Shown here in pieces: positions 1,575 to 26,126 of a stretch of 40,839 bases of DNA. The notes beneath the pieces were generated by a model. That model was not told the DNA's origin. It was given only the letters and a program-made list of their open reading frames with translations, and did no database searches. This stretch comes from Spirochaetales bacterium. Lineage in GTDB: Bacteria; Spirochaetota; Spirochaetia; Sphaerochaetales; Sphaerochaetaceae. Position numbers and translations under genes: made by a program. Positions within the stretch are counted from its first letter, which is position 1. Each line of letters begins with the position of its first letter. Location: contig JAGBWX010000104.1 in assembly GCA_017629575.1 (NCBI GenBank), positions 1-40,839 on the forward strand. The letters are read 5' to 3'.

Positions 1575-1591
1575 TGTTGCATTATGTTGCA
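1575..1591 (-). promoter_or_regulatory. Tandem heptamer operator upstream of ygeW
   Basis: On the - strand this reads TGCAACA-TAA-TGCAACA, a perfect 7-bp direct repeat with a 10-bp period. It ends 8 bp upstream of the predicted -35. The same element, in the opposite orientation relative to the gene, is found before ygfK (23775-23791) and before the PLP enzyme gene (26110-26126) at the same distance from the -35. The position suggests an activator site; the binding protein is unknown. Confidence 0.6.
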
Positions 1592-1703
1592 TAGTCTTTT
1601 TTTAAACGAGAAGCGCCAAACAGTATTTAGTTTGTAAACTACAAGATTCGTATGAAAAATAAAAAAAGAAAATCCAAATGCTTTGAAATAATGTCTGATG
1701 AAA

Positions 1704-1730
1704 TAAGGGCGCCTTTCAAAACGCCCTTTA
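1704..1730 (-). terminator. Terminator after selD
   Basis: Inverted repeat AAGGGCG (1705-1711) / CGCCCTT (1722-1728) just beyond the selD stop codon. On the - strand a short T-rich stretch follows. It would end the yedE-sirA-DUF3343-selD transcript. Confidence 0.65.
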
Positions 1731-1733
1731 AAC

Positions 1734-2771
1734 TCATTTGAAATATACAGCTTTTTCCTTTCGCTCTATAACTTTACCTATAATCCTGCAATAAGGCTTA
1801 CCGATCCTTCTAACAACTTCTTCCGCATCCTCTTGATTTAAAAAGAGCATAAGGCCACCAGATGTCTCTGGATCGCAGCATAAATCCTTCATCTCCTGTG
1901 AAAGAGATGAATCGAAGTCCACTTTATCTGCAACATAATCTAGATTATGGTACATGCCCTCAGGAAGAAGGCCGAAGCGAGTGTACTCTAGCGCATTAGG
2001 AAGGATTGGAAGCTTTGAGGTGTCTATCTCAATTGTAACGCCACTGGCATTTGCAACCTCACTAGAGTGCCCCGCTATCGAAAATCCCGTTACATCTGTT
2101 GCTGCATGAACACCAAGATCCCTAGCAGCATCCCTGCCCTCTTTGTTGAGTCTTGTCATGGAATCAACAGCAGCTTCAACGCTCTCAGGGGAGGCCTCTC
2201 CTCCCTTTAAGGCCGTGTTTATTATTCCAACACCTAACGCCTTTGTAAGAACGATTGAGTCTCCAACCTTTGCACCTTTGTTGGACCAAACCTCATCTTC
2301 CCTCATAAAGCCTGTTACGCATAGTCCATACTTTGGAGTTGGATCTGAGATTGTATGGCCACCAGCAACTACTGCTCCAGCCTCTTCGATCTTCTTGAGA
2401 CCACCTAGAAGAATATCCTCCATTACAGAGAGGTCTAAGCATGATGGGAAGCATAGAAGATTCATTGCAACATTAGGCTCACCGCCCATGGCATAGACGT
2501 CAGATAGTGCATTTGCTGCTGCAACCTGGCCAAATATGAATGGGTCATCTACCATAGGTGGAAAGAAGTCTACAGTCTGTACAGATACAATGTCATCCTT
2601 TACACGGTATACAAGAGCATCGTCGGCACTCTCAAAGCCCTCGATCAGACGGTCTGAGGTATGGAGCGGAAGCTTGTCTATGACGCTATGCAAAGCCTCA
2701 GGAGGAAGCTTTGCTGCACATCCTGAGGTCTTAACCATAGAAGTAAGTTTTACGTCACTCTTTGTTTTCAT
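1734..2771 (-). CDS. selD: Selenophosphate synthetase (selenide, water dikinase)
   Basis: A 345-residue SelD that makes selenophosphate from selenide and ATP. The N-terminal loop SGCAAK supplies the catalytic Cys18 and Lys21, equivalent to Cys17 and Lys20 of E. coli; Cys rather than selenocysteine is encoded. Other SelD signatures are TVDFFPPMVDDPF, AAANALSDVYAMGG, GGHTISDP and CCDPETSGGL. It is the last gene of the operon yedE-sirA-DUF3343-selD, and its first 17 bp overlap the preceding gene, so translation is probably coupled. No selA or selB is in the window. The neighbours argue that its selenophosphate feeds the labile selenium of molybdenum hydroxylases, as in the orphan-SelD genomes described by Haft and Self (2008). 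SelA/SelB elsewhere in the genome cannot be excluded. Confidence 0.95.
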   Translation of the reverse strand: MKTKSDVKLTSMVKTSGCAAKLPPEALHSVIDKLPLHTSDRLIEGFESADDALVYRVKDDIVSVQTVDFFPPMVDDPFIFGQVAAANALSDVYAMGGEPNVAMNLLCFPSCLDLSVMEDILLGGLKKIEEAGAVVAGGHTISDPTPKYGLCVTGFMREDEVWSNKGAKVGDSIVLTKALGVGIINTALKGGEASPESVEAAVDSMTRLNKEGRDAARDLGVHAATDVTGFSIAGHSSEVANASGVTIEIDTSKLPILPNALEYTRFGLLPEGMYHNLDYVADKVDFDSSLSQEMKDLCCDPETSGGLMLFLNQEDAEEVVRRIGKPYCRIIGKVIERKEKAVYFK

Positions 2772-2991
2772 ATATCATCCTATAGCTTTCGCCTTCCTTT
2801 ATGTATACAGCCTCCAGGTTCTCATCAGATAACTCAACATCAAAGGGAGATGAGAAGAATGCTGCTGTTCCACAGGATGAGGAAAGCGATCTTGGAACTG
2901 GGGCGAGACGAGAGCCAGAGACTCTCTTCTTGAACATCATCGCCCCATAGTGATTGTGAAAAGTTGCTACTTTTTCAGAGTTAGTGTCCAT
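2755..2991 (-). CDS. DUF3343 protein, putative Se/S carrier
   Basis: A 78-residue protein with the DUF3343 hallmark PVPRSLSSSCG, in which Cys40 is the likely carrier residue. DUF3343 proteins are often annotated as putative selenium/sulfur carriers because they co-occur with YedE/YedF and NifS-like genes; a biochemical role has not been firmly shown. It overlaps the sirA-like gene upstream by 25 bp and selD downstream by 17 bp, so these three proteins are probably made in step. The position suggests it passes persulfide or perselenide between the SirA-like protein and SelD or the hydroxylase maturation system. Confidence 0.82.
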   Translation of the reverse strand: MDTNSEKVATFHNHYGAMMFKKRVSGSRLAPVPRSLSSSCGTAAFFSSPFDVELSDENLEAVYIKEGESYRMIYENKE

Positions 2992-3170
2992 TCTCCATCG
3001 CTCTCTACAATAACAGGCTCAATACCGAGAGCCCTTGCAAATCTGGAGATATTCTCCATTGGAACACGGCTGTCTACTGTAACAGCAACCTCAGAGTCTT
3101 CCTTGAGGGCTCTCTTAGTCATTATAACAGGTTCTGGACAGGATAATCCTCTGCAATCGATTTTTTTCAT
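2967..3170 (-). CDS. SirA/TusA/YedF-like sulfurtransferase
   Basis: A 67-residue single-domain SirA-like protein. The CPxP motif (Cys11-Pro-Glu-Pro) near the N-terminus is the persulfide/perselenide-carrying site in this family, and a second Cys is at residue 6. The start was set at ATG 3170, which follows GAGG and begins the typical MKKIDCRGLSCPEP sequence; an upstream extension in the same frame lies inside yedE and is not likely translated. It directly follows yedE (1-bp gap), the same pairing as yedE-yedF in E. coli, which suggests selenium uptake followed by carrier loading. YedF proper is longer and has a second domain; here the DUF3343 gene may play that part. Confidence 0.88.
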   Translation of the reverse strand: MKKIDCRGLSCPEPVIMTKRALKEDSEVAVTVDSRVPMENISRFARALGIEPVIVESDGEWTLTLKK

Positions 3171-3171
3171 A

Positions 3172-9184: not shown

Positions 9185-12058
9185 TCAGAACTTTCCAAGT
9201 CCCTTGAGAATCTTCTCAGGAGTAATTGGCCATGTGCGAACCCAAACTCCACAAGCATCAGCAATAGCCATCGCAATAGATGGAGCGGCTCCATTAGTTG
9301 CGATTTCAGAGATTGACTTAGCTCCGAATGGGCCGAACTTGTCATCAACATCAATTAATACTGACTTGAAGTCCTCTGGGCTCTCATAGATCATTGGTGT
9401 TCCGTAGTCTGTGAAGTTAGCATTTACGCATGTGCCATTCTCATCAAGAATCATACCTTCATAGAGGGTATGGCCAATCGACTTCATAGCAGCACCATAC
9501 ATCTGGCAAAGAGCAATCTCAGGATTGATTGGAGTTCCAGCATCCTGGAGAGCATAGAACTTGTTAACCTTTATTTCACCAGTTCTTACGTTTACAGCAA
9601 CTTCAGCAAAGTGTGCGCCATAAGGAACTGCGAAGTTAGGTGTTACGAATGTTCCCTTTCCAATCATCTGACCTCTGCCATCGCCCTGGAGAGCATCGTG
9701 GCTGAGCTTAGAATATGTGATTTCCTTTCCGCTCTTTGAAACAATCTTGCCAGGCCATACGAGCTCAAGCTCTTCTTTTGGCTCACCAAGCTGCAAGGAA
9801 GCTTCTACGAGTACCTTTTCCTTAAGATCCTTAACAGCCAAGAGTGATGCGTTTCCTGAGAAGTATGTTCCAGAAGATGCATATGCACCTGTATCGAATG
9901 GACAAGAGTCTGTATCGCCAGAGACAACAGATACTACCTCTAGAGGAACTCTCATGATTTCAGATACGCACTTAGCAGAGATTGTATCCAAGCCTGTTCC
10001 GAGGTCTGCGCCACCTGAGAAGAGGATGAATGTTCCGTCTGTCAGGAGCTTGCACTGTGCTGTTGCATGGTCCAATCCTGGAAGACCAGAACCCTGCTGA
10101 ATCATTGCAAAGCCCTTTCCAATCTTCCAATCAGGATCCTCTGAGACTTCCTTCTTGCCCCAGTTAATCATCTCAGCACCCTGATCGAGAGCTTCCTCAA
10201 GACCACATGAGCCAACAGGAACAACAGCTCCTTCTCTACCTTCGCCAAGGCCCTTGAGGATTTCAAGCATGTAGCCCTCATGGACAATGTTCTTCTTAGC
10301 CATCATAAGTGGATCGATGCCAAGCTTCATTGCAAGCTGTCCCATGCAAGAGATGATTCCAAAATAGCCCTTAGGTGCACCGTAGCCCTGATAAGCGCCC
10401 GTTGGAGGAATGTTTGTGTAATATGTAAGAAGATCGTAATACATATTATCTACAGCAAAGATAGGAAGAGTCTTTGAAGATGCATTCATTGGAACTGTAA
10501 GACAGTGGTTGCCATAAGGACCAGTGTTGGCTCTTACATCCATATAGATAGCAGTAATTGTGCCATCTTTTTTACCACCCATCTTAACTCTAACTCTCAT
10601 TGGATGACGAGTTGAGTTTGCATAGAACTCTTCAGCTCTTGTATTTCTGTAATAAATTGGCTTTCCTGTAATCCATGTGCAATATCCAACAAGATCTTCA
10701 ACAAGAATATCCTGCTTAGAGCCATAGCCACCGCCAACGCGCTCCTTGATGATGTGAATCTTGTTCTCTGGAATCTGACATACCCAACCAACAATTCTTC
10801 TTACATGGTAAGGAACCTGTGTTGAGCAGTTCATTACAAGTCTTCCACCCTCAATGTGTGCATAGCAAACATGAGGCTCAAGTGGTGTGCACTGAATCTG
10901 GCTAGTCTGATATGTTTCATCAACTACAGCATCTGCTTCAGCAAAGCCCTTTTCAATATCACCAATGCCACCATGTGCACCTGCTGCGATATTTCTATGG
11001 CTATCGGCATGGAGAGGGAACTGATAAACAATCTTTCCATCTCTCTCATCAGATGACTTGTTATACTCATCCAGGTCTGCAGGAGCCCCTGCTCTATACT
11101 CTACAATGCCGTTCTGAACTACAGGAGCACCATCAGCCATTGCTTCTTCAACTGTGAAAACAGGAGCAATTGGCTCATACTCAACCTTGATAAGCTCTGC
11201 AGCCTTATCTGCAATTTCTTTAGTCTTAGCAACGATGCCAGCCACTCTATCGCCAACATGTCTAACCTTCTTATTGAAGAGGCGTCTGTCATGTGGAGAT
11301 GGCTCAGGATTTCCCTGTCCTGCCTGCATATAGTAGATGTCTGGGCAGTTGAATGCAGTTACAATCTTTGCAACTCCATCGAGCTTTTCAGCCGCAGATG
11401 TGTCAATAGACTTGATATAAGCATGTGCAAATGGGCTTCTTAATACGTGGAGGCACCATGCGTTCTCTGGGACCTTGTCCTCCACGAACACAGGTTCACC
11501 GGAAACTAATGCAGCTCCGTCAATTTTTCCAGTTGGCTTTCCAATAAAGTCCAAGGAAGGTCTGAATGAAGGTGCAATCTCAGACTTGAACTCACCCTCA
11601 TCCCTAAGCTCTATTGCAAGCTTGACTGCAAGATAATAGTGCTCATAGCCAGCATCTCTGATGAAGATGCCTGAAAGAGCTTCCTGAATATCAGCTTTTG
11701 TTGGATTAGGCTTTTTATCAAGAAGCCAAGTGAGGATAAGAGCAGCAGCTGGTGCATTATAAGCACTTTGAACGATGCCAGCAGCAACCATAGCCTTCTG
11801 AACGTAGTTGATTTCTCTACCATTCATAAGTCCTTCTGCTGTCATGATTTCTGCGCCCTCAGCCTGATAAGCGAGAATGAAGTTAGAATACTTCAGAACA
11901 CCATTGAATACGATAGTGTCAGAGCCTGCGAAGCCTTCTCTATCGTCAGAGTCTCTTACTGAGTTGTAGCCAGCTCTATAGAGAACATCTCTGAGTCTTT
12001 CATCTCTTTCAGCGATAAGAACGATATTTTCGCCATTGATTCTACACTTGATATCCAT
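9185..12058 (-). CDS. xdhD: XdhD-like selenium-dependent molybdenum hydroxylase large subunit
   Basis: A 957-residue homologue of E. coli XdhD (956 aa), a molybdopterin-binding hydroxylase of the xanthine dehydrogenase family thought to act in purine conversion. Residues 1-160 follow a [2Fe-2S] domain fold, but every cluster cysteine is replaced (REGFAGSDTIVFNG, GIVQSAYNAPAAA, SGIFIRDAGY). From about 165 on come the two Mo-binding domains with RVGGGYGSKQD, GAYQGYGAPKG, SGGADLGTGLDT, VSGDTDSCPFDTGAYASSG and the catalytic glutamate in FGAKSISE near the C-terminus. The start codon ATG 12058 follows AAGGAGG, 2 bp after the YgfM-like gene. It is the last gene of the five-gene operon. The E. coli protein shares the degenerate N-terminus, so this is a family trait. 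The substrate is inferred, not shown. Confidence 0.92.
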   Translation of the reverse strand: MDIKCRINGENIVLIAERDERLRDVLYRAGYNSVRDSDDREGFAGSDTIVFNGVLKYSNFILAYQAEGAEIMTAEGLMNGREINYVQKAMVAAGIVQSAYNAPAAALILTWLLDKKPNPTKADIQEALSGIFIRDAGYEHYYLAVKLAIELRDEGEFKSEIAPSFRPSLDFIGKPTGKIDGAALVSGEPVFVEDKVPENAWCLHVLRSPFAHAYIKSIDTSAAEKLDGVAKIVTAFNCPDIYYMQAGQGNPEPSPHDRRLFNKKVRHVGDRVAGIVAKTKEIADKAAELIKVEYEPIAPVFTVEEAMADGAPVVQNGIVEYRAGAPADLDEYNKSSDERDGKIVYQFPLHADSHRNIAAGAHGGIGDIEKGFAEADAVVDETYQTSQIQCTPLEPHVCYAHIEGGRLVMNCSTQVPYHVRRIVGWVCQIPENKIHIIKERVGGGYGSKQDILVEDLVGYCTWITGKPIYYRNTRAEEFYANSTRHPMRVRVKMGGKKDGTITAIYMDVRANTGPYGNHCLTVPMNASSKTLPIFAVDNMYYDLLTYYTNIPPTGAYQGYGAPKGYFGIISCMGQLAMKLGIDPLMMAKKNIVHEGYMLEILKGLGEGREGAVVPVGSCGLEEALDQGAEMINWGKKEVSEDPDWKIGKGFAMIQQGSGLPGLDHATAQCKLLTDGTFILFSGGADLGTGLDTISAKCVSEIMRVPLEVVSVVSGDTDSCPFDTGAYASSGTYFSGNASLLAVKDLKEKVLVEASLQLGEPKEELELVWPGKIVSKSGKEITYSKLSHDALQGDGRGQMIGKGTFVTPNFAVPYGAHFAEVAVNVRTGEIKVNKFYALQDAGTPINPEIALCQMYGAAMKSIGHTLYEGMILDENGTCVNANFTDYGTPMIYESPEDFKSVLIDVDDKFGPFGAKSISEIATNGAAPSIAMAIADACGVWVRTWPITPEKILKGLGKF

Positions 12059-12060
12059 TC

Positions 12061-12756
12061 TTACCTCCTTCCCTCGAAAATGACAGAGGCAAGATACTTC
12101 TTGTACTCTGCACTGCCTCTAAGATCTGATACGAACTCTATGTTCTTATAGATTTCCCTATCCCTTCCAAATGCTACAGGAGAACCGGATGCGGAAATCG
12201 CATACATTCCCTCAGACTCTGCGGCAATCAATGTTGCATGAGAAGAAGATGTGATTGCAATTTTCTTTGCCCAGCCCTTTCTTCCGGCAGCAATTCTGAT
12301 TGCCTTCACAACGCCCTTGCAATTCTTGCTGATATATACAGAGAGAGGCTTTACCTTCTCTCCTGCATGGCACTCGATTACAACCTCTGCTTCAGCTGCA
12401 AGAAGAGCTGCAAGCATGTAGCTATCATCTCTTTTTAAAGCTACGTTGCCACCGATAGTTGCCATATTTCTCTTTTCAAAGGATGAGCAGAAAGCTGCTG
12501 CATCTTTGATGAACTCTGGAACAAGTTCGCATTCCTTGATGCTCTGGAGTGTTGCTCCTGCTCCAATAATTAGCTTATCGCCATCAATGGAGATTGAAGC
12601 ATCTAGAAGAGCTGAAATATCAATGAGTTCAGCACTGCTGTCTACAGAAGAATTGAGGCGAAGAACTTCTGTTCCTCCTGCAAGATAGGCTGAATTCTCA
12701 ATTTCATGTCTAAGCTTTACAGCTTCTTCAAGTGTCTTAGCCTGATGAATGACCAT
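12061..12756 (-). CDS. ygfM: YgfM-like FAD-binding subunit of molybdenum hydroxylase
   Basis: A 231-residue FAD-binding subunit of the CO dehydrogenase/xanthine dehydrogenase type. Flavin contacts are seen in YLAGGTEV (residues about 23-30) and RNMATIGGNVAL (about 95-106). It is shorter than XdhB-type subunits and resembles E. coli YgfM, which is encoded beside xdhD and is the presumed electron-accepting partner of XdhD. Here too it immediately precedes xdhD. ATG 12756 follows AAGGGGG. The gene lies 10 bp after the second FAD subunit gene. Confidence 0.85.
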   Translation of the reverse strand: MVIHQAKTLEEAVKLRHEIENSAYLAGGTEVLRLNSSVDSSAELIDISALLDASISIDGDKLIIGAGATLQSIKECELVPEFIKDAAAFCSSFEKRNMATIGGNVALKRDDSYMLAALLAAEAEVVIECHAGEKVKPLSVYISKNCKGVVKAIRIAAGRKGWAKKIAITSSSHATLIAAESEGMYAISASGSPVAFGRDREIYKNIEFVSDLRGSAEYKKYLASVIFEGRR

Positions 12757-12766
12757 TGCGCCCCCT

Positions 12767-13633
12767 TTACTCGATAATTCCCTCTGGAGAACCTGAAGCT
12801 ACTGCATCAATAAAGTAATCGAGCATTCTTCTTGTAGAGTTCCTTCTCCACTCAGGCATTGCATGTGGGCTGATTACGCCATTCCATGCATCCAGGAATT
12901 CTTCCTTCCTTGACTTTAGCTCTTCTGGTGCAAGACCGATGAGCATTCTCTCAGCATCCTTGCCTCTTGCAACCTTAGGACCAGCAGCACCTGAAGATGC
13001 TCTGAAATCAACAATCTTTCCATCCTTTACTTTGCATGCAGCTGAAAGAGAGAGCTTTGAGATAGCATTTGCTCTTCTTGTACCAATCTTTCTGTAGAAG
13101 ATATATGTGAAATCTGCTGGAGGAATGATTACCTTGGAGATGATTTCATCCTCTCTCAGCTCTGTCTTTTTTGCGCCCTTGATGAAGTCATCGAGAAGCA
13201 TCCTTCTTGATCCTTCAAGACTGATGAGCTCAACCTCAGCATCCAAAAGGATAAGAGGCTGAGGCAAATCGCCCTTTGGAGAAGCGTTTCCGATGTTGCC
13301 ACCGATTGTGGCGCTATTTCTAAGGGAGATAGCACCCATTCTTGATGCAGCAGATCTAACAAGGTAGTGAACGTCTTCGCATTCAGCAATCTCTCTAGAT
13401 ACTGTGAGTGCTCCAATTTCAACAGAACCATCTTCCATCTTCTTGATGCCCTTGAGCTCGCAAAGATTTGTTATGATCATGATTGGCTTCTTGAACACAG
13501 GAGACAGGCCAGACCCCTCATAGTGCTGAACCATTAAATCTGTTCCGCCAGCAAGAGGAATAGCACCTGTTGCCTTTCTAATTGCAAGAGCCTCTTCCAA
13601 TGTCTTTGGGATGTAGCATTTTACTTCTGCCAT
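12767..13633 (-). CDS. XdhB-like FAD-binding subunit
   Basis: A 288-residue FAD-binding subunit of a xanthine dehydrogenase-type complex. Motifs: IPLAGGTDLMVQ (about 26-37), RNSATIGGNIGNASPKGDLPQ (about 105-125), and the C-terminal CO_deh_flav_C domain (YRKIGTRRANAISKL onward). ATG 13633 follows AAGGAG and overlaps the [2Fe-2S] subunit gene by 13 bp. With the two genes upstream it forms a complete large/FeS/FAD trio, so this operon encodes one full hydroxylase plus the XdhD/YgfM pair. Confidence 0.9.
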   Translation of the reverse strand: MAEVKCYIPKTLEEALAIRKATGAIPLAGGTDLMVQHYEGSGLSPVFKKPIMIITNLCELKGIKKMEDGSVEIGALTVSREIAECEDVHYLVRSAASRMGAISLRNSATIGGNIGNASPKGDLPQPLILLDAEVELISLEGSRRMLLDDFIKGAKKTELREDEIISKVIIPPADFTYIFYRKIGTRRANAISKLSLSAACKVKDGKIVDFRASSGAAGPKVARGKDAERMLIGLAPEELKSRKEEFLDAWNGVISPHAMPEWRRNSTRRMLDYFIDAVASGSPEGIIE

Positions 13634-14103
13634 AAGTCTGCTCCTTTCTCTGCTGCGAGATGAATGGATTCGACGATCAGGTCATAGCCTGTGCAGCGGC
13701 AGATATTTCCGCTGATAGCCATTCTGATTTCATCCTCATTAGGATTAGGGTTTCTATCAAGAAGGTAATATGCTGCCATAACCATGCCAGGGATGCAGAA
13801 GCCACACTGTACAGCTCCACCCTCAGCAAATGCATTTATGATGCACTGGCCCTTCTCTGTATCTCTAATGCCTTCGATTGTCTTGATGTCAGATCCACAG
13901 CATGCGCCAACTGGAATAATGCAGGAAGTAACGAGTTCGCCATCCTTTAATACAGAGCAAGCACCGCACTCGCCTTCGCCGCAGCCTTCCTTAGAGCCTG
14001 TGAGCGAAAGGTCTTCCCTGATTACATCTAAAAGTCTTCTGAGTGGATCGCCGTTATATACAATTTTCTTGCCATTTAATGTGAATTTGATTTCAGCGGA
14101 CAT
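13621..14103 (-). CDS. [2Fe-2S] subunit of molybdenum hydroxylase
   Basis: A 160-residue small subunit with two [2Fe-2S] clusters. The plant-ferredoxin-like cluster is in GCGEGECGACSV plus a downstream Cys (TSC), and the second, four-helix cluster is in VQCGFC and NICRCTGY. All eight cysteines are present. ATG 14103 was chosen because GAGGAGG lies 10 nt upstream and the following sequence starts the ferredoxin fold; a longer in-frame reading to 14163 is buried in the preceding gene. It overlaps the large subunit gene by 11 bp. It is the only intact FeS subunit in the operon and could serve both large subunits, since XdhD has lost its own clusters. Confidence 0.93.
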   Translation of the reverse strand: MSAEIKFTLNGKKIVYNGDPLRRLLDVIREDLSLTGSKEGCGEGECGACSVLKDGELVTSCIIPVGACCGSDIKTIEGIRDTEKGQCIINAFAEGGAVQCGFCIPGMVMAAYYLLDRNPNPNEDEIRMAISGNICRCTGYDLIVESIHLAAEKGADLWQK

Positions 14104-16231
14104 TCTTGAGTGCCTCCTCGATATCTTCTGGTGGGATTGGGATAGAGCGTACTGTGATTCCAAGTGCTCTCTCTACTGCATCTACATATGCAGCTGATGC
14201 GCCATTGAATACGAGCTCTCCCATGCCCTTTGCTCCAAATGGTCCCCATTCATATGGGTTTTCCTGGATGTGATATTCCTGCTTAGGGAAGTCCATTGAT
14301 GTTGGAATTACATAGTCTGACATGCTTGACTGCCTGAAGTAGCCCTTTCTGTTTTCAAGCTTCTCCATTGATGCATAGCCAAGAGACTGCATGATTCCGC
14401 CATTGATCTGGCCATGTACGATCAACTCGTCGATAGCCTTGCCGATCTCGTGTGATGACCAAATGCCAACTGTCTTGATTTCATTAGTCAGCTTATCTGC
14501 CTCAACCTCAACACATGCAATGCCCCAACCGTAGCCGAGGTAGGCATCGCCTCTGAAGGTGGACTGATCCCAAGGATGTCCATCTGGGTGTTCGTATTCA
14601 ACCTCTGTTGAGAAGTCGCCTTCAGCCCAGCGCTCCTTCATCTCGAGAGCAGCTCTCTCAACGAGCTTTCCAACGATCATTGTTGAGCGGGAAGCTGCTG
14701 TTGGGCCAGAGTCTACAACCTTTGAGGTATCTGGATTGTCATATGAGATGTTCTCCATTGGAAGCTCAAGAACTGCGGCAGCAATCTTTCTAAGCGCTGT
14801 CTGGAAGCCCTGTCCCATCTCTGTTGAGCCAACCTGAATGTCTACATTATCGCCAGTCTTTACAAGTCTTGCGTGAGCCTTGATGATTGCCTGTTCGCCA
14901 TTGCCTGTAAATGCACCACCATGGTTGTACATTGCAATACCGATGCCCTTTCCTGATCCAAGCTTATATTCAGCAGCCTTTCTGTAGTAATCAGATGCCT
15001 CTGTTACAACCTTGATCATCTCAGGAAGCATAACCTCCTCAACAATGTGGCCATTTGTAACTGTCTCGCCACCCTTCTTGATAAGATGAGCTTCCTTGAA
15101 TGCGAGAGGATCGACGCCAAGGTGACGTGCGATATGGTCCATATGGGTCTCGATTGCAAAGAGTGTCTGAGGAGCTCCAAAGCCTCTGAATGCACAGGAT
15201 GGGAATGTGTTTGTTGCAATGCCTTCACCCTTTAAGTATGTGTTAGGGAAGTCATATACGCCATTTGCATGGAATACGCCTCTCTGGAGAACAACGTATG
15301 ATGATGCAAGATATGCACCGACGTTATATCTGATGAGGCCCTTTGTTCCGAGGATTTTTCCATCCTTGATTGCTGTCTTATAAACAACCTTTGATGGGTG
15401 TCTCTTAACTGAGTAGAGCATATCCTCTTCTCTGTCGAAGATCAGCTTGATTGGCTTTCTGACTACATTGAGAGCAACAAGCATTGGGCCTGCAATAACA
15501 TCTGGGAAGTGTTCCTTGCCACCGAATGCTCCACCAGTTGTTGTCTGGCGAACGATGATATCATCATATGGCTTGTTAATTAGTCCAGCTACTGACTTTC
15601 TAATGTAGAAAGGACACTGGGCTGATGCATAGACAACATACTTTCCATCTTCAAAAAGTACGATTACACCATTTGTCTCAAGGTGAACATGCTCCTGGAA
15701 GCCAGTCTCAATTGTCTCCTCGAAAATCTCATCAGCCTCAGCAAAGACTTCTTCCATGTCCTTGCCCTTTTCGCAGAAGAGCTCACAGGTAATGTTGTTT
15801 CCATCTCTGATTGGACCGCCAACGAGGTTTACGCCATCGTCGATTGAAACAGCTGGAGTCTCTTCTTCATACTCGATCTTGATTCTATCCTTCAAGTATT
15901 TGAGGACATTTCTATCTGGACCAACTACGAGACCAATTGTCTCGCCTACATATCTTACATCGCCTTCTGCAAAGGCTCTCCAGTCCTTTGCAATCATCCA
16001 AAGCTCATTCTTTCCACCTACTGGAATATCTTTATAAGTGATGAACTTATAGCCCTTTGGCATCTGTGGGGTTTCTATGTTGAGAATCTTTCCTCTTGGA
16101 ATAGAAGAACGAACCATATACGCATATTGCATTTCAGGGAATGAAAGGTCGCATACATATTTAGCATCGCCTCTTGCCTTAGCAACTGCATCTACTCTGA
16201 TTACTTTGTCGTTTATCTTAGTTGATGGCAT
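14093..16231 (-). CDS. Xanthine dehydrogenase-type molybdenum-binding large subunit
   Basis: A 712-residue molybdopterin-binding subunit of the xanthine dehydrogenase family. Motifs in order: DAVAKARGDAKYV near the N-terminus, TTGGAFGGKEHF (about 235-246), AFRGFGAPQTL (about 350), GSTEMGQGFQTAL (about 470) and the catalytic glutamate in PFGAKGMGEL (about 670-680). No FeS domain is fused, which fits a separate [2Fe-2S] subunit next door. ATG 16231 was chosen (AAAGGAG, 5-nt spacer) over a GTG six bases upstream that would abut the ribosome binding site. It is the first gene of the five-gene hydroxylase operon. The substrate, most likely a purine such as xanthine or hypoxanthine, is inferred from the cluster; related nicotinate- or CO-type enzymes are alternatives. 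Confidence 0.9.
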   Translation of the reverse strand: MPSTKINDKVIRVDAVAKARGDAKYVCDLSFPEMQYAYMVRSSIPRGKILNIETPQMPKGYKFITYKDIPVGGKNELWMIAKDWRAFAEGDVRYVGETIGLVVGPDRNVLKYLKDRIKIEYEEETPAVSIDDGVNLVGGPIRDGNNITCELFCEKGKDMEEVFAEADEIFEETIETGFQEHVHLETNGVIVLFEDGKYVVYASAQCPFYIRKSVAGLINKPYDDIIVRQTTTGGAFGGKEHFPDVIAGPMLVALNVVRKPIKLIFDREEDMLYSVKRHPSKVVYKTAIKDGKILGTKGLIRYNVGAYLASSYVVLQRGVFHANGVYDFPNTYLKGEGIATNTFPSCAFRGFGAPQTLFAIETHMDHIARHLGVDPLAFKEAHLIKKGGETVTNGHIVEEVMLPEMIKVVTEASDYYRKAAEYKLGSGKGIGIAMYNHGGAFTGNGEQAIIKAHARLVKTGDNVDIQVGSTEMGQGFQTALRKIAAAVLELPMENISYDNPDTSKVVDSGPTAASRSTMIVGKLVERAALEMKERWAEGDFSTEVEYEHPDGHPWDQSTFRGDAYLGYGWGIACVEVEADKLTNEIKTVGIWSSHEIGKAIDELIVHGQINGGIMQSLGYASMEKLENRKGYFRQSSMSDYVIPTSMDFPKQEYHIQENPYEWGPFGAKGMGELVFNGASAAYVDAVERALGITVRSIPIPPEDIEEALKNVR

Positions 16232-16311
16232 TCTCACTCCTTTTCCATTATCGTTTTAAACCTATAATGAAGATCGAACCGGCATGAAAAAACACGGCTA
16301 TTTATGATGCA

Positions 16312-19100: not shown

Positions 19101-20447
19101 CTAAGCTTTGATCTTATCTACAGTCTTCCAGACTCTAGAAGCGATCTTTTCAGCTTCGCCATAGATCTTATCTACATCCAAGTGTGGGAATACTCTGTTT
19201 TCCATCACTACTCTACCGTCTACGATAACTGTATTTACATGTCCTGATGCCATGCCCCAAACAAAGTGTCCTGCTGCATTAGCGTTTAATAAAGGAGTTG
19301 GATTCTTGTAATCGAGGAGAACGAGGTCTGCCTTGTATCCAGCTTCAACTTTACCCCACTTGCCTCTTCCACCGAAGTTTGAAGCTACAAGCTCATTGCC
19401 TCTATTGAGAGCTGCTACAAAATCTGATGGCCAGAATGGACCACCGTCATCCTTATGCTTGAAGAATGCACACTTGAGCTCTTCAAACATATTGCCGCCA
19501 CAGCCATCTGTTCCAATAACAAGCTTCTTGATCAAAGGAAGCTTATTGCAATAGCCAATGTGGTTGTTCATGTTTGATCTGCCCTGGTGGGAGATGAAGC
19601 AGCCTCTTTCATTAGCCTTTGCTATTTCCTTCTCACTGAGCCATACGCCATGAACAAGAAGAGTATTATCTGCAAGAAGTCCAAAGTCATCAAGTCTATC
19701 TACAATATCCTTGCCATAGTGATGATGGGAATGAATCTGGTCGTAGTGAGCCTCTGCAACATGCAGGTGCATGCCTCTTCCAGTTTCCTTCACAGCTTCG
19801 CTCATTAGCTTCAAGCCTTCATCAGGAATAGTGAATGGAGCATGTCCGCCAATCATTGCTTCGCAGAGAACATTTTCACCCTTTGCTCTTCTTGCATCGA
19901 CTTCTTTTGCAAAGCGGATATTTTCCTCAACACCTTCCTCAACTTCCTTCATGCCACCATTTCTATCTGTGATTTCGAAACAAGTAGATCCTCTGACACC
20001 TACTTCTTCCATACCTCTTGCAATAGCTGAAAGAGAGCCTTTGATGTAATTAGGAGATGCATGATGGTCAACACAGCTTGTTGTACCAGCTGCAATTGCA
20101 TCAAGAGAACAGATAAGTGATGAGTAGTAAGTTGCTTCCTCATCAAGACCTCTGTCGAGTCTCCACCACCACTCCTTAAGAACCTGGATGAAGTCTTCCT
20201 GAGGACCTGCTGAAATCTGCATGCCTCTTGATAAGCCAGAGTAATAATGATGGTGTGAGCATACATTGCCTGGCATGAGGGACTTGCCAGAACCGTCGAT
20301 TACCTTAGCACCAGGGATATTATCCCCAGCGCCCTTGCCAACAGAGAGAATCTCGGAACCTGAAATGACAACGTCTACACCCTCTAATACATCAAATGGA
20401 GGCTGAGTCTGAATAACTCTAACATTCTTGATTACGAGCTTTTCCAT
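19101..20447 (-). CDS. ssnA: SsnA, putative aminohydrolase
   Basis: A 448-residue amidohydrolase superfamily protein matching SsnA (E. coli 442 aa). Metal-binding motifs: VCSHHHYYSGLSRG (His65-67 region, the HxH), MHLHVAEAHYD, LLVHGVWLSE and the catalytic Asp in IGTDGCGGNM. SsnA belongs to the chlorohydrolase/guanine deaminase-like group and is a marker of anaerobic purine catabolic clusters together with ygfK, ygeW and xdhD; its exact substrate is unproven. It starts 3 bp after the ygfK stop codon, with the ribosome binding site AGAGGAG overlapping the end of ygfK, so the two are cotranslated. Confidence 0.92.
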   Translation of the reverse strand: MEKLVIKNVRVIQTQPPFDVLEGVDVVISGSEILSVGKGAGDNIPGAKVIDGSGKSLMPGNVCSHHHYYSGLSRGMQISAGPQEDFIQVLKEWWWRLDRGLDEEATYYSSLICSLDAIAAGTTSCVDHHASPNYIKGSLSAIARGMEEVGVRGSTCFEITDRNGGMKEVEEGVEENIRFAKEVDARRAKGENVLCEAMIGGHAPFTIPDEGLKLMSEAVKETGRGMHLHVAEAHYDQIHSHHHYGKDIVDRLDDFGLLADNTLLVHGVWLSEKEIAKANERGCFISHQGRSNMNNHIGYCNKLPLIKKLVIGTDGCGGNMFEELKCAFFKHKDDGGPFWPSDFVAALNRGNELVASNFGGRGKWGKVEAGYKADLVLLDYKNPTPLLNANAAGHFVWGMASGHVNTVIVDGRVVMENRVFPHLDVDKIYGEAEKIASRVWKTVDKIKA

Positions 20448-20450: not shown

Positions 20451-23400
20451 TTACTCCTCTACAGGACCCAAAAGGTATGGGTATGAGATGAATACTTCAG
20501 CAATCATTGCCTTGATTTCATCTGGTACATCTGCTTCAACGAAACCGTCGTCGTTGATCTCTCCCTTGATAATATTTCCGGCATAGCGAATAGTGAGCTT
20601 TTCACCATCTGCAAGGAAACCTGAGTTTTCTGAATTCTCGAAGTCATCCATTCTTGAGAAGAGTGTGAACTTCTTGAGGTATGGACCACCTGAGTGTGGG
20701 CAGAATGTTGCACAGTTGCCGCACTCGTTACAGTATGCATCGAGGTGGAGAATCTGGAATGGATCTTCAAAGATGCCTGATTCTCTCATATCGAGAGCAA
20801 CGTTTGCTCTGTTAGGACAAACCTCTACACACTTGTTGCAAAGATATGAGCATTCAACACATCTTGATGCCTCAATCTTCAAGAAATCCTTTGCACCAAG
20901 CTCTGCAGGAAGAGTAATCTTTGCCTTCTTTGAGCGGATGGATGCAAAGAACTTATTCTCTGCTTCAATCATTGCCTCTTCTGACTCTTCTTCCTCTTCT
21001 TCGTGATCATGTCCACATGTGCATTCATGGTCTTCACCATGGTCGTGGCCACATGTGCACTCATGATCTTCATCGTGATCATGTCCGCAGCAGCATTCGT
21101 GGTCTTCATCATGATCATGTCCGCATGTGCAAACATGTTCTTCGTCATGGTCGTGGCCACAGCAGCAATCGTCGTCATCTTCACCTTCGAGCATCTTCTC
21201 GTATACAGAGTCAATTGCCTTATCTACAGCATCGCGAGCTGATGCAATGCATCTTACTACAGTTGATGGGCCAGTCTTTGTATCGCCGATAACAAATACA
21301 TTTGCCTTTTCTTCGTCAGCGCCTAATGCCTTGAGAACAGCAGGATCTGCCTTTTCGCCGATAGCAGAGATGATGTATGAGCAGTCAAGCTTGAATGTTC
21401 TGCCAGTATCAACAGGTCTTCTTCTGCCAGAAGCATCCTTTTCTCCAAGTTCCATTTCCTTGACTGTCATGATGCCATCTGTAAGATCTGCAGGATTTGC
21501 GAGGAATACAAACTTGATGCCATCGTTCTTTGCCATGATGTATTCTTCTCTATCAGCAGGCATTTCTGACATTGATCTTCTATAGATGATTGTTACGTTT
21601 TCTACGCCCTTGATTCTCTTAGCCATTCTAGCTGCGTCCATAGCAGTGTTTCCGCCACCAATGACTACAACGTCCTTGCCAAGATCGATATCTTCGCCAT
21701 GCTTAGCTCTGTAGAGGAATGAGATTGCAGATTCTCTTCTGCCGTTGCCTGTAACACCTGGGTCGTTAGACTTGTCAGCACCGATAGAAACGAATACATA
21801 ATCAAAGCCTTCAGCCTTGAGCTCATCTACGCTCTTCTTTGCTGAGAAGTGGAACTTAGCGCCCTGAGCCTCAACAAAATCGATATCCTTCTGTACAGCT
21901 GCTGCTGGGATTCTGAACTCAGGGATAATGTTCATTACAACGCCACCAGCATTAGGCTCTTTTTCAAATACATGAGTATCAAAACCTGCTGATGCAAGGA
22001 AATATGCAGCTGAGAGACCTGCAGGACCTGCACCGATTACAGCAGCCTTTACATCTGCTGGTTCATCCTTGCCACCCCAGATTTCTTTCTTGTAATCCTC
22101 AAAGCCCTGCTCTGCGCAGATTCTCTTTACTTCTCTAATCTGAACAGCGCCCTCATAGTCCATTCTTGTACAATGGAGCTGACACTGATGGTCGCAGATC
22201 CAACCTGTGATGTTAGGAAGTGCGTTTGTCATATAGATGAGAGCAAGAGCCTCTGAGATTCTTCCCTCACCTGCAAGTGCGATGTAATCTGGAATTGGCT
22301 GATGAATTGGACAAGCTTCTACACATGGAGCTACATAGCAATCAAAGAGCTCAAGAGGAGTTCCAACCTTAGCTTTGTTATCGCCTCTGAAGTCCTTTGA
22401 TACGATGCCTTCTGGATCTGATGCCTTATCAACAAGCTTCTTGAGCTTTGCAATGTCGATATAGTCCATGTCCCAGCCCTTTGACTGATAGAGAACCTCT
22501 GCAATCTGCTTCATTCTCATATATCCGCCTGGCTTGAGCATGTCTGTTGCTAGTGTGATAGGATGGATGCCGCTTTCGAGGATATCCTTTGCAGAAAGTG
22601 CAGATGCGCCACCTGAGTATGATACAGGAAGCTTGCCATTGAATTCCTCTGAAAGAACGAGGGCAACTCTTGTTGAGATAGGAAGAAGAGTTCTTCCTGA
22701 CATGTATCTTTCATCTCCAGGAAGTACATCCTTAGGGTTTACGTTGCCAAGAGTGTTTGTAAGCTTAACGCCGAAGCCTCTACCTTCCTTTGCTGCGAGC
22801 TCTACGAGGCGATGGAGCATCTCCTTTGCATCCTTAAGCTGAAGATCGTGCTCAAATGCTGAACGAGCAAGCTCGATATTATTGAATCCGAGAGAGTCGA
22901 GAATGCCTCTTACTGTGTCATAGCCAAGGAGTGTTGGATTAAGCTTTACGAATACATCAAGCTTCTTCTCTGTAAGAAGGTAGCTACAGATAGCCTCGAT
23001 TTCCTTTGGAGGACAACCGTGCATTGTAGATACTGTTACTGATGGTGAAATATTCTTTGAAATCTTATCAAGAGATGCGATTACTGCATCCTCTGAGCCC
23101 TCAAGGTCTGTCATCTCAAACAGTCCATCCTTGAGCATTTCTCTAGCTTCTTTGATATAAGCATCAAAAAGAGGCTTCTTTCCTGCATCGATCATTGAAT
23201 CGATGTAAATCTGCATCTTTTCCTGCTTGATGCCTTCAAGGTTATAGCCAACTGACATATTGAAGATGAATGAAGGCTTTTCTATAACAGCCTTCTTCAT
23301 TGCTGATTCGAGGATATGGAGAATAATCCATGCCTTCAAATATTCGTCATAGGCCTTTTCAAGTGTATATTCTGTTGACCATTCAACGTTATGGCCTTCA

Positions 23401-23705
23401 TCTCTTGCATCAATACAAGGCTTTGCAATCTCTAGATGGTCCATGATCTGGACTGTCTTGAGCTCCATGAATCTAGCGCCAACAAGGTAGCTAGTTACAA
23501 TATTCTGAGCGAGCTGAGTATGGGGACCTGCTGCAGGACCAACTGGAGTTGTGCAGCACTGGTTGAATACTTTTACAGTCTTGTCACCCTTGTCTGAGTA
23601 GAATTCCTCTCTTGGTATACCGAAGACTGAATTCTGATTTCTGTACTCTCCAACAATTCTCTCAAGAAGTTCGGAGAAGGAAACTGGTCTCATGATATCT
23701 GCCAT
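20451..23705 (-). CDS. ygfK: YgfK, large iron-sulfur flavoprotein with His/Cys-rich insert
   Basis: A 1084-residue homologue of E. coli YgfK (putative selenate reductase subunit; role in purine catabolism). Residues 1-450: dihydropyrimidine/dihydroorotate dehydrogenase-like FMN barrel (MSVGYNLEGIKQEKMQIY, STMHGCPPKEIEAI, VKLNPTLLGYD). About 455-530: N-terminal glutamate synthase-like FeS segment (CVAPCVEACPIHQPIP, CDHQCQLHC). About 545-835: FAD and NAD(P) folds (IGAGPAGLSAAYF, VIGGGNTAMDAARMAKR). Residues 847-906: five 12-residue repeats rich in Cys, His and Asp. About 945-1010: two [4Fe-4S] clusters (CVECSYLCNKCVEVCP, CNECGNCATFCP). ATG 23705 is preferred over ATG 23711 because GGAGGG abuts the latter. 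Promoter and tandem operator lie upstream; ssnA follows. Confidence 0.93.
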   Translation of the reverse strand: MADIMRPVSFSELLERIVGEYRNQNSVFGIPREEFYSDKGDKTVKVFNQCCTTPVGPAAGPHTQLAQNIVTSYLVGARFMELKTVQIMDHLEIAKPCIDARDEGHNVEWSTEYTLEKAYDEYLKAWIILHILESAMKKAVIEKPSFIFNMSVGYNLEGIKQEKMQIYIDSMIDAGKKPLFDAYIKEAREMLKDGLFEMTDLEGSEDAVIASLDKISKNISPSVTVSTMHGCPPKEIEAICSYLLTEKKLDVFVKLNPTLLGYDTVRGILDSLGFNNIELARSAFEHDLQLKDAKEMLHRLVELAAKEGRGFGVKLTNTLGNVNPKDVLPGDERYMSGRTLLPISTRVALVLSEEFNGKLPVSYSGGASALSAKDILESGIHPITLATDMLKPGGYMRMKQIAEVLYQSKGWDMDYIDIAKLKKLVDKASDPEGIVSKDFRGDNKAKVGTPLELFDCYVAPCVEACPIHQPIPDYIALAGEGRISEALALIYMTNALPNITGWICDHQCQLHCTRMDYEGAVQIREVKRICAEQGFEDYKKEIWGGKDEPADVKAAVIGAGPAGLSAAYFLASAGFDTHVFEKEPNAGGVVMNIIPEFRIPAAAVQKDIDFVEAQGAKFHFSAKKSVDELKAEGFDYVFVSIGADKSNDPGVTGNGRRESAISFLYRAKHGEDIDLGKDVVVIGGGNTAMDAARMAKRIKGVENVTIIYRRSMSEMPADREEYIMAKNDGIKFVFLANPADLTDGIMTVKEMELGEKDASGRRRPVDTGRTFKLDCSYIISAIGEKADPAVLKALGADEEKANVFVIGDTKTGPSTVVRCIASARDAVDKAIDSVYEKMLEGEDDDDCCCGHDHDEEHVCTCGHDHDEDHECCCGHDHDEDHECTCGHDHGEDHECTCGHDHEEEEEESEEAMIEAENKFFASIRSKKAKITLPAELGAKDFLKIEASRCVECSYLCNKCVEVCPNRANVALDMRESGIFEDPFQILHLDAYCNECGNCATFCPHSGGPYLKKFTLFSRMDDFENSENSGFLADGEKLTIRYAGNIIKGEINDDGFVEADVPDEIKAMIAEVFISYPYLLGPVEE
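20988..21167 (-). repeat. Five 36-bp in-frame repeats encoding a His/Cys/Asp metal-binding-like insert
   Basis: Within ygfK, five tandem 36-bp units encode CCCGHDHDEEHV, CTCGHDHDEDHE, CCCGHDHDEDHE, CTCGHDHGEDHE and CTCGHDHEEEEE (residues 847-906). They sit in the linker between the FAD/NAD domain and the C-terminal ferredoxin domain. The units differ at synonymous positions, so the array is not a very recent expansion. CxCGHDHD resembles Ni/Zn-binding His-Cys tails of metallochaperones. Confidence 0.93.
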
Positions 23706-23738
23706 ATGCATCCCTCCATGTATTTGTCTACTAATTCA

Positions 23739-23766
23739 ATTCTACAACAGATTGAAATGTAGTCAA
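23739..23766 (-). promoter_or_regulatory. Promoter of ygfK-ssnA
   Basis: On the - strand TTGACT (-35, 23761-23766), 16-bp spacer, TAGAAT (-10, 23739-23744). A degenerate second copy of the tandem heptamer element (23743-23759) overlaps the spacer, and the good copy sits 8 bp upstream of the -35. Confidence 0.7.
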
Positions 23767-23774
23767 ATTAATTC

Positions 23775-23791
23775 TGCAACAGATTGCAACA
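23775..23791 (-). promoter_or_regulatory. Tandem heptamer operator upstream of ygfK
   Basis: On the - strand TGTTGCA-ATC-TGTTGCA, a perfect direct repeat with 10-bp period ending 8 bp before the -35. A 20-bp near-copy (at 23741 compared with 23773, 32 bp apart, about three helical turns) lies in the promoter spacer. It has the same geometry as the site at 26110-26126. Confidence 0.7.
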
Positions 23792-23798
23792 TTCAAAA

Positions 23799-23830: not shown

Positions 23831-23850
23831 TACCATAAGCCTTAATTTTT

Positions 23851-24162: not shown

Positions 24163-24249
24163 AGCATCAAGTTACCATTGATAATCGCGTCAATCAAGCG
24201 ATTTAAGACAAGTACATACAATCCACATCTTGCCCCATTTTTACACACA

Positions 24250-24576
24250 TCAATCGAACAATTCGTAAAGAATGTGTGACGAATGAACAGATTCAATCAT
24301 TGCAAATGAGAAGATGATCAATGCAAATAGCGCAATCACAAGTACAGATAGTACGATGCCAATGATGCTCATTGTATAGCTTGCTGTGATCATAGAGCTC
24401 TTCTGGCCCCTATTCTTCAGCTTAGATACCTTAACCAGTGCGATGATTGAAAGCACAAGGCCAACTAAGCCTGGTGCAACAATAGATAGAATCGAGAGCA
24501 CAAAAGGTGCAGTTTCTCCTTCATGTCTATTCTCCGGCTCTCCCTGATAAGGGTGTCCTGTATATTCATTTTCCAT
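24250..24576 (-). CDS. DUF4190-like small membrane protein
   Basis: A 108-residue protein with a polar, Glu/Gly/Pro-rich N-terminus (1-25) and two hydrophobic hairpins. A basic loop, KVSKLKNRGQKSS, in the middle is typical of DUF4190-type proteins. ATG 24576 follows TTAGGAGG. A related, broken copy lies 88 bp downstream, so this is a tandem duplication. The family is found in many bacteria and has no established function. Confidence 0.75.
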   Translation of the reverse strand: MENEYTGHPYQGEPENRHEGETAPFVLSILSIVAPGLVGLVLSIIALVKVSKLKNRGQKSSMITASYTMSIIGIVLSVLVIALFALIIFSFAMIESVHSSHILYELFD

Positions 24577-24690
24577 AAATTAGCCTCCTAATTTTGTTAC
24601 TTTAATTATAACTCTATAAGTTTAATAGGAAAAGCATTTAATTTGCAGATTATTCACCAATATGGTGTAAAAAAGATATATCATCTAAAT

Positions 24691-25230
24691 ATGGAAAGAC
24701 TAAAAGAGTATACCGTAGCACCTTTGGAAGCAACATCTCAAACTCCTGAGGCAATCATCTCAGGCATCCTTGATGATGAGATTAAGGCAAGGATGATTAA
24801 AGTCATCAAAATTGAGGCTCCAATTCGTCAATCGCTTCTTTATAAGAGAACGATAAATTCTTTCTCTCTACAGAAGGTTGGCTCTAGAATTCTTCAAAAA
24901 TTTGATGAAATAGCCACAAGTCTTGATTTTGACTATATCGAAGAAAATGGCGAAAAGGTATATATCTTTGGAGAATCTCAATTCTTCAGACCTACTCCAG
25001 ACTCCGAGGTAAGGTACTCTTATCAGATTCCATACATAGAAGGCGCAAACTGTATTCTCCACATCCTTGAATCTAGAGATAAATCCTCTTACACCCAGAA
25101 AGAGCTTTCATATATCTTTGCAGAGACAATGGGCTACCAGAAGCTGGGTGCAAAGGTATTGGAGCTCTTTAAGGAGTCGCTAAAGGATCAAAGAATCAAG
25201 AAGAACAAAAATGGAAGAGTACAGAAATAA
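24691..25230 (+). CDS. Stand-alone DUF3320-like domain protein
   Basis: About 179 residues from ATG 24691. The motif IEAPIRQSLLYKRTINSF followed by KVGSRILQKFDEIATSL resembles DUF3320, a domain normally found at the C-terminus of large superfamily I helicases of restriction or defence type (pattern EaPI-hydrophobic-RR, then G-R-hydrophobic). A second copy-like stretch (ILESRDKSSYTQKELSYIFAETMGYQKLGAKVLELF) suggests two winged-helix-like units. No helicase part is present. The start is uncertain: no good ribosome binding site precedes ATG 24691, and a TTG at 24643 would add 16 residues. It overlaps the following HD-domain gene by 20 bp. Either a helicase remnant or an independent DNA-binding protein; function unknown. 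Confidence 0.6.
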   Translation: MERLKEYTVAPLEATSQTPEAIISGILDDEIKARMIKVIKIEAPIRQSLLYKRTINSFSLQKVGSRILQKFDEIATSLDFDYIEENGEKVYIFGESQFFRPTPDSEVRYSYQIPYIEGANCILHILESRDKSSYTQKELSYIFAETMGYQKLGAKVLELFKESLKDQRIKKNKNGRVQK

Positions 25231-26083
25231 GCGCCTTTATAAGATATATGAAAATAAGGTATCGCAAATAGAGACGCTTCCTGAGTCTAGGACAATATTC
25301 AAATCAGAAAGAGCTCAGACTGAAATTCTATATTCAGAATCCGGGGATACTACTCTTATAATCGCTGGAGAAGAATATAAGGGAAGCTTCTATTTAGCAT
25401 CAGAGCTGTTGGAGGAATGGATTCTTCCCCTACTTGTAGAAGGATATTCACCTTCTCTCTGGAATCTTTCACCAATAGATTCCAGCTATATAAATGAACG
25501 TATCCTACCTATGTATGATAACTTTGATGGAGCCCATCAAAGAGACCATGCAATATCGGTAATCGATGCAAGCTTAGCTGCTGCAAAAGACTTGGGAGTA
25601 AACCCTGAAATCTGCTACATTGTTGCAGCCTTCCATGATATCGGACTCACTATATCCAGAGAATTTCACCACACAGAGTCAGCTAGGCTATTTAGGGAAA
25701 ATGAGTATATTAAGTCTCTGCTTTCTGACCAAATCATAAATCTGATTGCCCAAGCCATCGAAGATCACAGAGCATCTAGCAAGAATCTCCCAAGAAGCAT
25801 CTTTGGGATAATCGTTGCCGATTCAGATAGGCTTCTAGAGCCAAGAACTGTTGTCTCAAGGACTATAAAGTTCGGAATTGCAAGATATTCCTCCTCTTTT
25901 GATATGCAATTGGAAAGATGCTATGACCACATTAGTAAAAAATACTCCCGAGAGGGCTATTTAAAATACTATCTCCCTACAATACAAGATATTAACAATC
26001 GCGAAAAACTTTACAAACTTGCAGAGGACAAAAAAGCGTTCTCAAAATTTTTCGATGAAATATATCAAGAAATTGTAAAATAA
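25211..26083 (+). CDS. HD-domain phosphohydrolase-like protein
   Basis: A 290-residue protein. Residues 1-90 form a poorly defined domain with several beta strands. From about 105 on comes an HD domain with His113 (HQRDHA), His142-Asp143 (FHDIG) and a downstream Asp (IVADSDRL, about residue 207), the set expected for a metal-dependent phosphohydrolase. HHTESARLF adds further histidines. HD proteins hydrolyse nucleotides or other phosphate esters; the substrate cannot be read from the sequence. It overlaps the DUF3320-like gene by 20 bp, so the two are cotranslated. Confidence 0.75.
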   Translation: MEEYRNKRLYKIYENKVSQIETLPESRTIFKSERAQTEILYSESGDTTLIIAGEEYKGSFYLASELLEEWILPLLVEGYSPSLWNLSPIDSSYINERILPMYDNFDGAHQRDHAISVIDASLAAAKDLGVNPEICYIVAAFHDIGLTISREFHHTESARLFRENEYIKSLLSDQIINLIAQAIEDHRASSKNLPRSIFGIIVADSDRLLEPRTVVSRTIKFGIARYSSSFDMQLERCYDHISKKYSREGYLKYYLPTIQDINNREKLYKLAEDKKAFSKFFDEIYQEIVK

Positions 26084-26109
26084 TTTAGGTTTACATCAGT
26101 TTTTATTTT

Positions 26110-26126
26110 TGTTGCTTTTTGTTGCA
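26110..26126 (+). promoter_or_regulatory. Tandem heptamer operator upstream of the PLP enzyme
   Basis: TGTTGCT-TTT-TGTTGCA, direct repeat with a 10-bp period (13 of 14 bases identical), ending exactly 8 bp before the -35. It has the same element, orientation and spacing as upstream of ygfK. Confidence 0.7.

Follow-up and report, generated by a model that had tools for sequence, protein, structure and literature searches.

A conserved tandem TGTTGCA element before purine-breakdown genes of Sphaerochaetaceae, with a WYL-like protein as candidate regulator

Our study reports on a contig of a spirochaete of the family Sphaerochaetaceae (JAGBWX010000104.1 of assembly GCA_017629575.1, 40,839 nucleotides; this whole stretch is called the window) and on a 17-bp element within it, TGTTGCA-N3-TGTTGCA, a direct repeat with a 10-bp period. 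Three copies stand before genes in the 40.8-kb window, next to the promoters of ygeW, of ygfK and of a gene for a pyridoxal phosphate (PLP)-dependent enzyme. The features concerned are as follows.

296 to 1507, minus strand: ygeW, carbamoyltransferase (TIGR03316, 758.7 bits against a cut-off of 500)
1538 to 1543, minus strand: predicted -10-like TAAATT of ygeW, read directly, 17-bp spacer
1561 to 1566, minus strand: predicted -35-like TTGCTA of ygeW, read directly, 8 bp from the element
1575 to 1591, plus strand: tandem element of the ygeW promoter, exact match, reversed relative to ygeW
19101 to 20447, minus strand: amidohydrolase directly after ygfK (PF01979), labelled ssnA from gene order alone
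20451 to 23711, minus strand: ygfK (TIGR03315, 1258 bits against a cut-off of 835)
23738 to 23743, minus strand: -10-like AGAATT of ygfK, 17-bp spacer, TAGAAT in many orthologues
23761 to 23766, minus strand: -35-like TTGACT of ygfK, read directly, 8 bp from the element, commonly TTGACA in orthologues
23775 to 23791, minus strand: tandem element of the ygfK promoter, exact match, same orientation as ygfK
26110 to 26126, plus strand: tandem element of the PLP-enzyme gene, one mismatch, same orientation as the gene, not conserved
26135 to 26140, plus strand: -35-like TTTACA of the PLP-enzyme gene, read directly, 8 bp from the element
26157 to 26162, plus strand: -10-like TATACT of the PLP-enzyme gene, read directly, 16-bp spacer
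26186 to 27649, plus strand: PLP-dependent enzyme, PALP fold, cysteine-synthase-like, under every curated NCBIfam cut-off listed

A preliminary description of this DNA had placed the element before these three promoters, reversed at ygeW and in gene orientation at the other two, and both the places and the orientations are as it gave them, with a single mismatch in the third copy. It had also put the element at a fixed 8 bp from the -35; this distance is seen at all three window copies but does not hold as a fixed value among orthologues, and the second copy that it saw in the ygfK promoter spacer matches at only 10 of 14 positions.

Orthologous promoters of ygfK and ygeW keep the element. These counts omit duplicates with the same upstream sequence, homologues below an identity threshold of 40 or 45%, and homologues that start late in the query, and the -35 was located by a crude consensus search. 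The site is present before 27 of 28 ygfK orthologues, all in the same orientation (20 of 22 with another upstream window), and ends 7 bp from the -35 in eight of them, 8 bp in six and 9 bp in thirteen; many of these promoters carry TTGACA and TAGAAT. Before ygeW, a gene found in 46 of the 48 genomes of the window's genus, it occurs in 32 of 33 orthologues, all reversed (31 of 32 with another upstream window), at 4-8 bp from the -35 in 23 of 32 and at other values in nine. Two ygeW matches in this genus contain one internal TAA each (G013:C17:10157-11353 and G018:C8:19410-20606). A reversed site also precedes all four ygeY orthologues of at least 45% identity (three of five in an earlier count at a lower identity limit); the two ygeY genes that lack one in that count sit after ygfK and ssnA in the same direction.

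Carbamate kinase also has the site, which stands before 26 of 26 orthologues in the orientation of the gene (23 of 23 with another upstream window). The best -10-like hexamer follows this site by 5 or 7 bp in 20 of the 26, so that the site covers about -36 to -18, and by eye these promoters have no clear -35 of their own. There are two geometry classes, upstream of the -35 as first described and next to the -10, and a single activator position does not by itself account for all sites, because the carbamate-kinase site lies just before the -10 and the site of the regulator gene introduced below follows the -10 in several genera. The union of the three window promoters in one regulon, also proposed earlier, is supported by conservation at ygfK and ygeW but not at the PLP-enzyme gene: none of its 12 homologues has a site within 110 bp, which rules its site out as a conserved member. 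Nor was a site found in three xdh upstream regions, for which the query start is uncertain, and one of four adenine deaminase orthologues has one.

Counts of the element across genomes were made at no more than one mismatch unless stated, with the reversed pattern as control. The source genome (G000; 1.41 Mb in 131 contigs) holds nine elements and none of the control. Their neighbours are ygeY, ygeW, ygfK, the PLP-enzyme gene, a BMP-family ABC transporter, a deaminase-fold protein with a MATE transporter, a second sugar/BMP-type ABC ATPase, adenine deaminase with a xanthine/uracil permease, and a 323-amino-acid regulator. Crudely called open reading frames overlap two of the nine elements and 11 of the 13 two-mismatch matches; of the other two such matches, one lies beside a permease (C23) and one within a different repeat (C111), which we set aside. 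The latter is a cluster of TGAAACA words (G000:C111:10182-10198) between a gene for a PrdR-like sigma-54 activator and a pdxA-like gene, and is probably a separate regulatory array.

The window's genus carries the element in 47 of 48 genomes (273 copies, control 4), and its order, in these data the single family Sphaerochaetaceae, in 135 of 139 genomes (21 of 22 genera; 873 copies, control 16). Three copies in 40.8 kb are far above this control rate, in line with the earlier view that chance is an unlikely source. Among the 150 exact word pairs in the matches listed (0-30 bp apart), a spacing of 3 bp is seen in 59, 4 bp in 15 and 23 bp, the next highest, in 13; a gap of 3 or 4 bp gives a period of 10 or 11 bp, one helical turn. 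Among the 78 exact sites in the matches listed an A follows the first word in 45% and the second in 28%, which favours a direct repeat over a hidden TTGCAA palindrome. An RNA element was rejected, since the window has no match to any Rfam family and the site can face either way with respect to its gene; the window has no tRNA either.

A census of targets covered 112 distinct sites in 19 genomes: all listed matches of G001-G016 (100 sites), nine of G000, one of six of G017 and two of six of G018. A site was assigned when it lay within 260 bp upstream of, or up to 40 bp inside, the estimated start of a gene of one of 19 query families; these had been picked from genes already seen beside sites and do not include molybdenum-cofactor genes, and the census is thus a measure of coverage and not an unbiased annotation. 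By this measure 91 of the 112 sites were assigned, mostly to genes of purine breakdown, purine transport and carbamoyl phosphate. Carbamate kinase accounts for 17 sites, ygfK for 16, ygeW for 15, xanthine dehydrogenase (XDH) for seven, ygeY and BMP-type transporters for five each, and a phosphomutase for four, in an intergenic region common to ygeX. Three sites each belong to the PLP enzyme, the regulator, guanine deaminase, adenine deaminase, purE and a 240-amino-acid protein labelled unknown, and one each to ygeX, two permeases and a deaminase. Two of the 21 remaining sites precede genes of a single cluster with a purine nucleoside permease-like (NUP) protein.

At two loci (L233:5856 and L234:5593) carAB-like genes are preceded by the element with a 4-bp gap (11-bp period), and a third exact word lies beyond it; Pfam matched the small chain, whose putative partner has 1061 amino acids. 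These sites may mean that carbamoyl-phosphate synthesis is controlled reciprocally, and strings like them are listed for G013, G018 and G020. Beyond the family, where the survey covered fetched loci and not every site of each genome, sites in families f3, f4, f17 and f25, taken together, precede ygfK, carbamate kinase, AzgA-like and xanthine permeases and XDH, and the ygfK with a site is often divergent from the PLP enzyme. Sites also stand before genes that by eye resemble serC and serA at L312 and L291 (G120 and G154), and serine synthesis may be part of the regulon in some genomes.

The unlinked promoters of the pathway thus share one conserved site, as both the census and the orthologue counts show, and we regard it as very nearly certain that a purine-breakdown regulon has this element as its operator. 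The earlier expectation that matches would concentrate before purine and xdh genes and be kept at orthologous promoters is borne out for purines: they concentrate before genes of purine breakdown, xanthine dehydrogenase and purine transport. Its selenium arm is not borne out: in the window no site precedes selD or a yedE-like gene even at three mismatches, and none with at most one mismatch precedes either gene in the mapped clusters that hold them (six each, the window included). The window's own XDH-like gene likewise has no element with at most one mismatch before it, and five sites elsewhere were assigned to its homologues.

14093 to 16237, minus strand: molybdenum hydroxylase (XDH-like) large subunit

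This gene is part of a molybdenum-hydroxylase cluster at 9185-16237, with two large subunits and two separate FAD-type subunits (12061-12756 and 12767-13633).

One of the nine elements of the source genome lies before the gene of the 323-amino-acid regulator, which we call c18.

G000:C73:26589-27557, on another contig and outside the window: c18, 323-amino-acid WYL-like regulator

All but one of the 48 genus genomes gave a match to this protein, and across the family 125 of 139 genomes did so at E ≤ 1e-20. Its N-terminal helix-turn-helix is matched by Pfam HTH_11 in all 32 members compared (E ≤ 0.1), above cut-off in the protein of the source genome. The WCX domain (PF25583) is matched in 31 of 32 members at E ≤ 0.1 (best 2.8e-8), above cut-off in two of five C-terminal parts scanned alone and below it in the source genome's protein. 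A Foldseek search with a low-confidence model returned DriD (E 1e-9) and also PafBC, these two accounting for 15 of the 17 matches at E ≤ 0.001, and the c18 sequence profile matches DriD chains at E 3e-5 over residues 241-314. The DNA-binding part is better kept than the rest: residues 1-45 of nine distant c18 proteins are 71-80% identical to the source genome's protein and other parts 34-61%, and the core GVHRST is retained in 17 of 18 proteins compared, the remaining one having GIHRST.

Two lines of evidence tie c18 to the element. The first is its own promoter: a site (at least 12 of 14 matches, N3 or N4, within 100 bp) lies upstream in 74 of 103 distinct orthologue regions, a count that omits duplicates, matches starting after residue 3 and genes with too little upstream DNA, against one of 523 upstream regions of other genes in the same loci and nine of 2060 shuffles. 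The second is co-occurrence. A draw of 394 genomes of the class Spirochaetia includes 302 from outside the family; the 12 of these with full-length c18 average 5.7 sites and the 290 others, some of which have weaker partial matches to c18, average 0.73; four or more sites are present in 8 of the 12 and in 9 of the 290 (Fisher p 7e-9). Family genomes in which no c18 match was found, 14 in all, average 3.5 sites against 6.6 (p 3e-4). Four family genomes have no site at all; three of them lack c18, and in the fourth (G031) c18 is cut by a contig end. The apparent joint loss in G031, no sites and a c18 without its helix-turn-helix, was rejected as evidence for this reason. On these grounds c18 is probably the protein that binds the element.

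Computation shows the element with its enrichment, targets and conservation, and the kinship, autoregulatory sites and co-occurrence of c18; the picture that follows for binding, sign of regulation and ligand is inferred. The 17-bp element would serve as the operator of a purine-breakdown regulon in Sphaerochaetaceae and some other Spirochaetia, with c18 most likely its regulator, and each of the two TGTTGCA words, which repeat after one helical turn (10 or 11 bp), may take up one of two c18 subunits. At ygfK, ygeW and ygeY it is plausible that c18 acts as an activator from about -52: just upstream of the -35 it could make contact with sigma or the alpha C-terminal domain and turn these genes on when purines are available; for ygfK and ygeW we lean towards activation with modest confidence. 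At carbamate kinase c18 would cover the -35 region, in most cases ending 5 or 7 bp short of the -10, as DriD sites do. In Sphaerochaeta halotolerans, Aphodenecus and several other genera the site of the c18 gene itself follows a TATACT- or TACAAT-like -10 and stands 14-22 bp upstream of the start codon, an arrangement that suggests self-repression in Sphaerochaeta and some other genera and makes autorepression likely in several; Bullifex porci and Ornithospirochaeta, the window's genus, have the site before the -10. Taken together, we hold at a little better than even confidence that a relative of WYL activators governs purine breakdown and the carbamoyl-phosphate economy as master regulator in several families of Spirochaetia, reading head-to-tail heptamers at two positions (about -52 and about -28). 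It would also control its own gene, and a purine-derived ligand may bind its degenerate sensor domain.

The same sites could be read with the opposite sign, c18 repressing all of its targets and a ligand derepressing purine breakdown. The first word of the carbamate-kinase site overlaps the -35 position, the c18 site follows the -10 in several genera, ygfK promoters are near consensus and would need little activation, and biosynthetic genes (carAB-like and purE) also have sites. Against this, the sites of ygfK, ygeW and ygeY are upstream of the -35 in conserved orientation and narrow spacing, an activator-like place, and carbamate kinase, judged by eye, is without a clear -35 of its own. We consider general repression unlikely, though it is the strongest of the alternatives.

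A second alternative keeps the element as operator of the purine regulon and gives it to another regulator, of AraC type, TetR type or unseen, with c18 a mere member of the regulon; the site upstream of c18 could indeed mean that c18 is only a target. Several observations weigh against c18 as the binder, and some of them count for this alternative. Clear sites are missing from 29 of the 103 c18 upstream regions. Ten family genomes have two or more sites and no c18 found, among them G120 (96% complete) with eight sites, four of them exact, G067 with five and G078 with nine. Assembly gaps are a likely explanation for the seven of these ten that have c18-bearing congeners; G067, G073 and G076 have no congener in the set, and G076 is a single contig with four one-mismatch matches. 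Outside the family nine genomes without c18 have at least four matches, and one of these, the distant genome G436 of the class Spirochaetia, has eleven. The protein itself also raises doubts: its model has a predicted local distance difference test (pLDDT) score of 65, with most of the first 77 residues below 50, it superposes on DriD with a template-modelling (TM) score of about 0.2-0.4 and a root-mean-square deviation of about 17-22 (TM 0.12-0.37 over the 17 Foldseek matches), and the stretch that corresponds to the W-Y-L motif reads VTGRLRHT. No Pfam WYL model was found in the source genome's c18 (E ≤ 0.01) or in five C-terminal parts (E ≤ 10, with filters that drop most weak matches), which is why we call c18 WYL-like and not a member of the WYL-domain family. 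If c18 is the binder, it reads a direct repeat, and the WYL operators in papers are inverted repeats.

Two loci have a site at the start of the AraC-cupin gene c21, but its homologues (E ≤ 1e-50) are present in 23 of the 48 genus genomes and three of the 22 upstream regions examined reach 12 of 14 matches, and c21 was rejected as a general binder. An AraC-type response regulator that follows c18 was rejected because it is adjacent in only 22 of 105 loci. The TetR gene c15 was judged from three loci, in three genomes, in which it stands opposite the element that belongs to ygfK or to its neighbour. Site counts, moreover, track the presence of c18 across families, and we think it rather improbable that a regulator other than c18 is the binder. 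Chance, or a common word of AT-rich spirochaete DNA, is practically excluded: the window at up to three mismatches is not enriched (five found, 6.68 expected), but at zero or one mismatch the control counts refute it, as do the carbamate-kinase record and the low average of the 290 other Spirochaetia.

The system proposed here, with c18 at the tandem element, can be set beside several known ones. DioR, a sigma-54-dependent enhancer-binding regulator of Clostridiales whose function is given as Unknown, has a predicted regulon of dpaL-pyrC-argE, pbuX, ygeW-ygfK-ssnA-ygeY and yqeB/xdhC-type genes (PMC6615313). Equivalent genes appear in the two regulons; the difference lies in the machinery, which is sigma-54 promoters with an enhancer-binding activator there, and sigma-70-like boxes (at ygfK and ygeW) with a WYL-like protein here. 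The WYL-domain activators DriD, PafBC and SiwR resemble c18 in the helix-turn-helix and WCX parts, and DriD and PafBC are the best structural matches to its weak model. A DriD site is a pseudo-palindrome that overlaps the -35 and keeps a fixed distance to the -10 (PMC12340889), and the carbamate-kinase site is similar in lying over the -35 and near the -10; the SiwR operator is a 19-bp imperfect palindrome (PMC10693628). Both DriD and SiwR answer DNA damage or genotoxic stress (PMC12340889, PMC10693628), in contrast to the c18 system with its direct repeats, its purine genes and a protein in which no Pfam WYL domain was found. The WYL repressors BrxR and CapW are a further comparison: BrxR, which is associated with phage-defence islands, has inverted repeats downstream of its own promoter (PMC9122601), a position like that of the c18 site in several genera, but the two differ from c18 in their inverted repeats, their defence genes and their weaker structural match.

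Many target genes of the element belong to the anaerobic reductive urate pathway of YgfK, SsnA, HyuA, YgeW, YgeY, YgeX and YqeA (PMC12507026), and the main text of that paper contains neither 'regulator' nor 'operon'. Among the papers listed on the motif, on WYL proteins with purines or spirochaetes, and on control of urate genes, a body that covered few subscription papers, no description of this regulon was found. A metabolic, direct-repeat WYL-like system would be new relative to the inverted-repeat, stress or defence operators described for WYL proteins in papers, and it would raise the structural question of how a WYL-like protein reads a direct repeat. Degradation of urate by anaerobic gut bacteria through ygfK, ssnA and ygeW is of interest in gout (PMC12507026), and the present analysis supplies a candidate regulator, an operator and a list of targets for urate and purine breakdown in spirochaetes. 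If the proposal is true, it would take a WYL-like protein out of stress defence and place it in ordinary metabolism.

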